Source of the DNA: Thermoanaerobaculia bacterium
GTDB taxonomy: Bacteria; Acidobacteriota; Thermoanaerobaculia; UBA5066
Length of the DNA: 64,000 nucleotides
Assembly (NCBI GenBank): GCA_022071945.1
Contig: JAJVIN010000028.1
Span: 1-64,000 of the forward strand
Reading direction: 5' to 3'
Position numbers and translations under genes: made by a program. How positions within the stretch are numbered: position 1 is the first letter of the stretch; each line of letters starts with the position of its first letter. Under the pieces are notes generated by a model. The model did no database searches. It saw nothing but the letters and a program-made list of their open reading frames with translations, and had not been told where the DNA came from. Positions 40,082-41,774 of this stretch are shown piece by piece.

Positions 40082-40136
40082 CCGGAATCCGGGTTCTGTG
40101 CTTCCGGAAGATCGGAAGCCCTAGCAGCCAGAAGGA

Positions 40137-40487
40137 GGGACAGACATTGAACCTCAGGGACAAGGGACAGACATTGAACATCAAAAAGGAGGGACAGACA
40201 TTGAACGTCATTGAACGTCATTGAAAGATTTCATGTGGGGATGGGGACAGACAAACTAGGGGAGACAAACTAGGGGAAAAGCTCCCCGAGGGAATCTTGG
40301 GATTTCGGGATTTCAGGGACAGACAATTTCCAGACGTCAGGGACAGACAATTTCCAGACGTCAGCAGACGTCAGGGACAGACAATTTCCAGACGTCAGCA
40401 GACGTCAGGGACAGACAATTTCCAGACGTCAGCAGACGTCAGGGACAGACAATTTCCAGACGTCAGGGACAGACAATTTTCAGAATT
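40137..40487 (+). repeat. GGGACAGACA direct-repeat array upstream of the RAYT transposase
   Basis: The 455-base gap before the transposase holds no gene but ten same-direction copies of GGGACAGACA (starts 40137, 40164, 40191, 40244, 40316, 40340, 40374, 40408, 40442, 40466). The first three continue as ATTGAAC, and TTGAACGTCA is itself repeated at 40201-40220. From 40314 a 24-base unit starting CAGGGACAGACAATTTCC repeats six times (40314, 40338, 40372, 40406, 40440, 40464; the last diverged), with a 10-base CAGCAGACGT inserted after units 2, 3 and 4, giving mixed 24/34-base periods. The position next to a RAYT gene suggests its target or mobile non-autonomous elements. Confidence 0.85.
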
Positions 40488-40512
40488 CAGGAAGGAACGC
40501 CAGGATTTGGCG

Positions 40513-40518
40513 TAAAAT
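40513..40518 (+). promoter_or_regulatory. -10-like box (TAAAAT), leaderless layout before the transposase
   Basis: TAAAAT, five of six consensus bases, ends 6 bases before the transposase ATG (spacer TGGCGT). There is no ribosome-binding site and no clear -35. It immediately follows the repeat array. Confidence 0.5.
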
Positions 40519-40524
40519 TGGCGT

Positions 40525-41496
40525 ATGAGAACGGGGCGAGCGTTTCCGGCAGAGGACTCCCAGGCGGGCTTCTTCCACTGCATCTCCCGCGTCGTGGATC
40601 GCCGCTTCATCCTCGGTGACCCCGAGAAGGAGACCTTCCGCAAGATCCTCAGGGCCTGCGAGACCTTCTACGGCCTGAAGATCCTGACCTTTTGCGTCAT
40701 GTCCAACCACTTCCACATCCTCGTGGAAGTGCCTGAACCACGCGAGCTTACCGAAGAGGAGGTCCTCTCTCGAGTGGCAGCCCTCTACTCTCCCAAGTTC
40801 GTCTGCGGTGTCCGAGAGGATCTCGACACCTTCAGGCAAGCCGGCCTTGAAGAGCGGGCTCAGGCTCTCCTGGCCTCTTTCACGCGCCGGATGTGGAGCC
40901 TCAGCAACTTCATGAAGTCCCTCAAACAGCGCTTCTCCAGCCTCTACAACCGGAACAACCAGCGATCCGGCACCCTCTGGGAGGAACGTTTCAAGAGCAT
41001 CATCGTCGAGGGAGACGAATCCGCCCTTCTCACCATGGCCCTGTACATCGATCTCAATCCCATCCGCGCTGGGCTCGTGAGCGATCCCGCCGAGTACCGC
41101 TTCTGCGGTTACGCGGAGGCCGTCGGGGGCAGCGAGGCCGCCCGGGAAGGCCTCCGATCACTGCTTTCCCGAAGACCAAGGTCGTGGAAGATCGTCCAGG
41201 CGGAGTACCGGCGCCTGCTCTATTCCAACGGGGAAGAAAGCTCGATCCGGAAGGGGTTCACGCGCGAGCAGACCGCGGATGTGGAAGCCCGGGAAGGACA
41301 TCTGCCGGCCGGGACGGCACTCCGGCACCGGATTCGCTACCTCTCGGAGGGCGTCATCCTGGGGAGCCGCGTCTTCATCGACGGCTGGCTCGAACGAAAC
41401 CGGTGGCGATCCGGAGATAGATCGGGAAATCAAGGCTCGAATCGACACCTCCCGGACTTGACGGCCCTGGGGATCTTGCGTCCCGCCCCGGCCTGA
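40525..41496 (+). CDS. REP-associated tyrosine transposase (Y1_Tnp / RAYT)
   Basis: 323-residue HUH-type single-strand DNA transposase of the IS200/REP family. It shows FHCISRVVDRRFILGD near 17-32, the metal-binding HUH motif in SNHFHILVEVPEP near 60-72, RRMWSLSNFMKSLKQRFSSLYN near 118-140 carrying the likely catalytic Tyr, GTLWEERFKSIIVEG and ALYIDLNPIRAGLVSDPAEYRFC. The C-terminal 120 residues are a longer extension (RKGFTREQTADVEARE) common to larger RAYTs. Such proteins usually act on repetitive palindromic or tandem elements. The reading frame is intact. The next 278 bases up to the helicase hold no gene I can support. Confidence 0.92.
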   Translation: MRTGRAFPAEDSQAGFFHCISRVVDRRFILGDPEKETFRKILRACETFYGLKILTFCVMSNHFHILVEVPEPRELTEEEVLSRVAALYSPKFVCGVREDLDTFRQAGLEERAQALLASFTRRMWSLSNFMKSLKQRFSSLYNRNNQRSGTLWEERFKSIIVEGDESALLTMALYIDLNPIRAGLVSDPAEYRFCGYAEAVGGSEAAREGLRSLLSRRPRSWKIVQAEYRRLLYSNGEESSIRKGFTREQTADVEAREGHLPAGTALRHRIRYLSEGVILGSRVFIDGWLERNRWRSGDRSGNQGSNRHLPDLTALGILRPAPA

Positions 41497-41774
41497 CGCC
41501 CGGAGATTTCCCGCACACCATCACGTGACCGACAAGGCCCTTCGCCGTCCCCGCTCCCCTTTGCCCGGAGGAGACGAGCCTCGCACGCGCCTTCCTCAGC
41601 CGTTTCCCCGGTCTCCCTGACCAGCGAGGACTCGATCCAGCACGTTCCCCATTCGCTCGGCCGTTCCCGTCCGGCGAGGATCCAGGCGCCGGTTGGAGGT
41701 GTGCTCATCTCTCGATCGCACGAGGAGGATGGAGACGGCAGCCTCGAGAGGACGGACGATACAATCCAGGCTGG

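Follow-up and report, generated by a model that had tools for sequence, protein, structure and literature searches.

Among the systems closest to the one analysed here are the TIRtrons/TIRYTs described by Di Nocera et al. in 2013, which have the TIR consensus GGGGWSAS, whose TIR copies can form genomic dimers or clusters, and most of whose ends bear no relation to palindromic REPs (PMC3733652). In the classification of Quentin et al. (2018), 20 of 26 TIRYTs were placed in TnpA-Y1 subclass 2.1 (PMC6006769). The members of subclass 2.3, published from Chromatiales and Alteromonadales, have a median length of 325 aa, a 55-aa insertion, an HUH-Tyr distance of about 110, and the motifs WE and YVDLNP; the subclass is listed as 'REP: no', associated repeats not having been found in the published searches (PMC6006769). 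Class 1.1 (IS200/IS605) of the same study is marked by the motif Y[IV]ENQ and by near-identical copies, and recognition of single-stranded ends is the rule of the IS200/IS605 family (PMC6006769). The TnpAREP enzymes cut single strands beside the REP at CT or CA, and it has been proposed that the free 3'-OH left by the cut primes replication or attacks another end (PMC8266576).

The direct array and the transposase behind it

The locus lies in a 64-kb window, by which we mean the whole stretch of DNA that was analysed, where a transposase gene is flanked by genes for an aldehyde dehydrogenase and a DEAD-box helicase, one on either side. The gene is preceded by ten exact copies of GGGACAGACA, all on the + strand and all aimed at it, which start at 40137, 40164, 40191, 40244, 40316, 40340, 40374, 40408, 40442 and 40466 (Table 1). 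When one mismatch is allowed, GGGACAGACA has 16 matches in the window vs 4.7 expected, a number reached by no shuffle. Tandem Repeats Finder reported periods of 27 bp (2.8 copies), 24 bp and 34 bp (4.0 copies, 100% match) within the array, and no second array of comparable size elsewhere in the window.

A sequence-only reading of the region 40100-41496, which takes in the gene in addition to the array proper, had described ten same-direction copies with 24/34-base periodicity before the transposase, and both the exact search and Tandem Repeats Finder agree with this. The ATTGAAC continuation by which it set apart copies 1-3 is likewise seen in the array, copy 4 continuing with AAACTAGGGG and copies 5-10 with AATTT[CT]C. 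It had also proposed six 24-base units with optional 10-base inserts. The units are real, GGGACAGACAATTT being present in six copies at spacings of 24/34/34/34/24, but an independent insert is not: the 34-bp unit corresponds to the 24-bp one in which the final ten bases (GCAGACGTCA) are doubled, and since GCAGACGTCA is a tandem copy of the unit's own end, the extra bases constitute a nested duplication of what stands immediately left of the next GGGACAG. In addition to the ten exact copies there is one truncated tip, and local duplications away from any tip are also present, for example the one to the right of tip 3 (Table 1).

Table 1. Positions in the 64-kb window of the array, the transposase gene and the adjoining features
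Feature	Position	Strand	Basis or remark
Array of ten one-directional GGGACAGACA tips	40137..40475	+	
First sub-array: three units GGGACAGACATTGAAC of 27-bp period; GGGACAA at 40157 is a truncated tip	40137..40210	+	
Local duplication, 2.7 copies of CATTGAACGT, on the right side of tip 3	40199..40225	+	Tandem Repeats Finder
Tip 4, then AGACAAACTAGGGG x2 (40249-40277)	40244..40277	+	
Second sub-array: six tips reading GGGACAGACAATTT[CT]C, spaced 24/34 bp apart; extra 10 bp is duplicated left flank (CAGACGTCAG)	40316..40475	+	
Gene-proximal tip (59 bp 5' of ATG) and leader	40466..40524	+	
Leader hairpin ACGCCA-GGATT-TGGCGT	40497-40513	+	
TAAAAT box, 5' of ATG	40513-40518	+	
HUH/Y1 transposase, 323 aa, HFH62-64, catalytic Tyr174 (YIDLNP), subclass-2.3-like	40525..41496	+	
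Transposase C-terminal tail from about residue 298	41416..41496	+	Low model confidence; divergent between near-identical-core paralogues
Degenerate form of the 3' flank common to paralogues L040, L045, L048 and L052; without inverted GGGACAG	41497..41540	+	

The encoded protein matches Y1_Tnp (PF01797) with an E value of 1.3e-12, and its catalytic motifs are intact, with an HUH-Tyr distance of 112. The histidine motif reads NHFH in the window protein and in the relatives compared, vs NHYH in four of five plasmid members. With the NCBIfam REP transposase model NF047646 it scores 66.2 bits, which is below the cut-off of 80; the best structural match of its AlphaFold model (pLDDT 82.7) is TnpAREP 4er8. 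Judged by its length, HUH-Tyr spacing and motifs, the window transposase resembles subclass 2.3.

The tip in the source genome and in other genomes

The source genome comprises 6.17 Mb in 69 contigs, and the genome-wide statistics given here were derived from pattern searches and from loci that were fetched. Six full-length paralogues, 76-88% identical to the window protein, and more than ten partial ones are present, and in all ten paralogues with an intact 5' side GGGACAG[A/G]CA stands 32-75 bp 5' of the start codon. The sequence-only reading had proposed looking for arrays near RAYT genes across the genome, and besides a tip before each of these ten paralogues this search gave 2-10 copies at several loci; half of the ten have two or more, and several intact ones have a single tip. 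Genome-wide, GGGACAGRCAAT occurs 31 times, vs once for the reversed control, and in 60 relatives, a set of genomes from outside the genus, it occurs 0-3 times each; nearly all of these relatives have no transposase or only distant ones. Neither of the two outcomes that the sequence-only reading had named as speaking against it, namely, a wide presence of the repeat without RAYT genes and confinement to one locus without variation in copy number, was seen. The 0-3 copies in relatives lacking the RAYT subfamily also rule out that the motif is a general feature of the lineage, and the motif is multiplied at several loci and in other phyla, these other arrays ruling out that the array is confined to the window locus.

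The base preceding GGGACAG is A at 28 of 34 sites. A five-copy array at C18:112.9-113.1 kb is gene-free, no transposase having been found in the surrounding 10 kb, and tips without a nearby gene could have another origin. An inverted right-end tip was not found within 500 bp downstream of the transposase copies of this genome and, hence, the element looks one-ended here. Two paralogue leaders were folded, and neither showed the leader hairpin of the window copy; since folding yielded no hairpin common to the paralogue leaders, a palindromic REP identity is not supported.

Several observations concern the paralogues themselves. In the set consisting of L043, L044, L046, L047, L049, L050 and L053-L056, the core DNA, which extends from close to the start codon as far as about codon 297, is 94-99% identical, and the upstream leader and the C-terminal tail are strongly different in DNA, the protein pattern of the tail being conserved. 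This would be accounted for by core gene conversion or by rapid change at the ends. Both flanks of paralogue L040 (C8) hold diverged copies of one ~90-bp gene end (ANSL..VVAAPANLPA). Broken transposase copies are clustered at C67 (L224) and C18:5076-5335, and C21:82018-82353 (L001) encodes one short IS200-type transposase of 150 aa, whose Y1_Tnp score is far above those of the RAYT copies. Inside open frames at L112, L121, L124 and L136, GGGACAGACAAT is present four times in one phase, coding [K/Q]GQTI, and its in-frame codons GGA and ACA look unusual for a GC-rich genome; a view of such scattered in-gene tips as inserted pieces has to be set against the plausible in-frame [K/Q]GQTI at these four.

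Relatives of the transposase at about 38-54% identity are found mostly in Verrucomicrobiota, and GGG[AT]CAG or its complement is eightfold more frequent in the 400 bp 5' of their genes than far away (2.84 vs 0.36 per kb). Recent copies of the element can be aligned in the Chthoniobacteraceae MAG G061 (Verrucomicrobiota), where similarity ends at CAATAAAGTCTCTGTCCCT and the left end is AGGGACAGACACTTTAT, the inverted match of CAATAAAGTCTCTGTCCCT. Because similarity stops at these inverted tips, GGGACAG is very likely the terminal tip of an element, in G061 one with inverted repeats. The same genome has direct arrays of 2-9 copies at transposase gene starts, and tip arrays on its contig C7 without a gene in the 8 kb examined. 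Six direct tip copies are present at relative L063, and an inverted second copy of the motif is found in relatives L089 and L072 and in G061. No tip was found within 400 bp of the gene in relatives L067, L074, L076, L085, L090, L093, L099 and L227. At four G061 loci (L220:366-455, L221:1932-2021, L237 and L238) a truncated left end with only the first 30-35 transposase codons is followed directly by a new complete left end. The marine-plasmid transposases of the 2.3 type have end words other than GGGACAG; on Pseudoalteromonas plasmid p1 (L245:1726-1923, 3262), TAGACA[CT]CCA is present in six direct copies upstream and in one inverted copy downstream. A relative of the transposase was not found in phage records, and the literature retrieved for GGGACAG or GGGGACAG together with a transposase consisted mostly of primers and unrelated papers.

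Duplications at the tip and the possible origin of the array

Many tips are preceded by a word, 0-7 tip bases and the same word again, followed directly by GGGACAG; an example in L040 is ACTCTCTCAGGGACA followed by ACTCTCTCAGGGACAG. An 8-base duplication ending no more than 2 bases from the tip start is present at 15-22% of the sites in this genome, vs a background of 0.55% elsewhere in the same loci, and by offset the signal falls to 1-2 sites of 40 at both -4 to -8 and +4 to +6, and to zero at +8 to +22. Counted by locus, flush duplications are present at 6 of 20 in this genome (P 4e-6), a test that is post hoc because the pattern was seen before testing. In other genomes they are present at 4 of 28 tips (P 8e-4 by tip, 0.01 by locus), in a set that includes L061, which had been noticed beforehand. 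At the right-end tips L229, L230 and L072 the duplications are in mirror image. What is observed, then, is the constant link between tip and gene family, a boundary tip in a relative, recurrent arrays and duplications flush with the tip.

We consider it somewhat more probable than not that the array is the left-end tip of the element plus its flank, reiterated through nicking by the transposase and subsequent slippage or re-priming of the 3'-OH. The Y1 transposase encoded downstream would recognise (A)GGGACAG[A/G]CAAT, the left terminal tip of a single-gene element of TIRtron-like type, and would nick single-stranded DNA at or inside this tip, leaving a 3'-OH. Before resealing, this 3'-OH would slip back or re-prime on nearby DNA and thereby duplicate the outside flank plus 0-7 tip bases, or a whole flank-plus-tip unit. 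Every duplication would supply new tips, such that the locus would grow into an array of nested units that all point one way; gene-free sites would also hold some of the tips. That the window protein binds and nicks, that the duplications arise by slippage, and that tips spread as units are steps that we infer. The recurrence of the tip and its pile-ups in unrelated bacteria suggests cutting of the tip by the enzyme and duplication of the tip during repair, and on whether nicking and slipping is the mechanism that made the array our judgement is evenly poised. The intact HUH and Tyr motifs, the structural match to TnpAREP 4er8 and the published cutting by TnpAREP enzymes beside REP also speak for this explanation; the lack of an inverted tip downstream of the copies in this genome and the relatives without a tip within 400 bp of the gene speak against it.

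An alternative accepts that the motif is an element end and takes the array for an ordinary VNTR, generated by replication slippage in neutral intergenic DNA, in which the transposase has no part. The inner 24- and 34-bp units are perfect tandem repeats, as slippage yields, duplications remote from a tip do occur, and the activity of the enzyme in array growth is putative. However, slippage in neutral DNA does not account well for the excess of duplications ending at the tip over the rest of the same loci (17-22% vs 0.55%), for the recurrence of tip-flush duplications in other phyla with unrelated flanks, or for a window without another array of this size, and we regard this alternative as rather unlikely. 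It is less probable still that each unit is a separate 3'-truncated element, inserted beside one already present, and that the target was duplicated in the process, the arrays being piles of aborted transposition. Units do start at the tip and vary in their end point, and the long truncated pieces of G061, in which the leader and 30-35 codons precede a new tip, are in line with such serial insertion; nevertheless, successive units share their outside flanks, a better fit to local duplication, and several junctions carry only 0-6 tip bases. Target duplications are not known for the IS200/IS605 type, which likewise counts against serial insertion.

The array might also be a cis-acting operator, by means of which the transposase or a host protein would regulate how the gene is transcribed, and its position directly upstream in one orientation would suit this, as would the fact that element ends often overlap promoters and the TANNAT-like box that follows in most paralogues. 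We consider this reading the weakest and highly improbable, because single-tip loci exist, at several intact paralogues, and the distance between GGGACA and the promoter-like box varies; moreover, the motif is also present in gene-free arrays and marks both element ends in G061. For the same two reasons, the regulatory site suggested by the sequence-only reading is not supported. Its -10-like box after the last unit does exist, as TAAAAT, but the distance of 13-29 nt across paralogues rules out GGGACA as a promoter -35. Its tie between array and RAYT holds in that the motif belongs to the transposase family, and fails as to a dedicated substrate next to a REP system, the motif being very probably the element's own terminal tip.

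Comparison with known systems

The analysis names an end motif for the 2.3-like branch, that is, for a subclass reported without associated repeats. The tips, which in several phyla have direct arrays and duplications flush with them, provide a concrete candidate substrate for biochemistry, and the explanation preferred here offers a simple account of the origin and spread of short non-palindromic repeats beside such transposases. A wider proposal we put forward only tentatively, considering it rather doubtful: the large Y1 transposases of the 2.3 kind may act on a non-palindromic tip, their nicking may make tandem duplications, and the tip may thus be a self-multiplying direct repeat, REP-like without palindromes, that edits neighbouring DNA.

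With IS200/IS605 elements (ISDra2, IS608) the system shares the catalytic fold; it differs from their subterminal hairpins, their TnpA of about 150 aa, and the Y[IV]ENQ motif of class 1.1, whose copies are near-identical. The REPtron of E. coli (TnpAREP, 4er8) has the same fold and likewise has short repeats, both beside the gene and scattered over the genome, whereas here there is no GT[AG]G foot and no paralogue-wide hairpin, the NF047646 score is below cut-off, and the repeats in this genome are not in inverted pairs. The likeness to subclass 2.3 extends to length (323 aa vs a median of 325), HUH-Tyr distance (112 vs about 110), the motifs WE and Y[IV]DLNP, and many copies per genome; the differences are HFH here and HYH there, the other phyla, and an end motif in place of the published lack of repeats.

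As in the TIRtrons/TIRYTs, a lone RAYT-like gene, coding here for a Y1 transposase with HUH and catalytic Tyr, is accompanied by an end motif that is not a REP and reads alike (GGGACAG/GGGGACAG): AGGGACAG here, and GGGGACAG at some sites and in relatives, fit GGGGWSAS, with seven of eight positions invariant. Unlike in TIRtrons, the copies in this genome have no inverted right-end tip within 500 bp, which is present in G061, L072 and L089, and for this reason the window copy is named TIRtron-like and not TIRtron. The long one-directional tip array is a further difference, and the described TIRYTs belong mostly to subclass 2.1. The case is therefore a variant, with a 2.3-like protein, an element that in this genome is apparently one-ended, long one-way arrays, and duplications flush with the tip.
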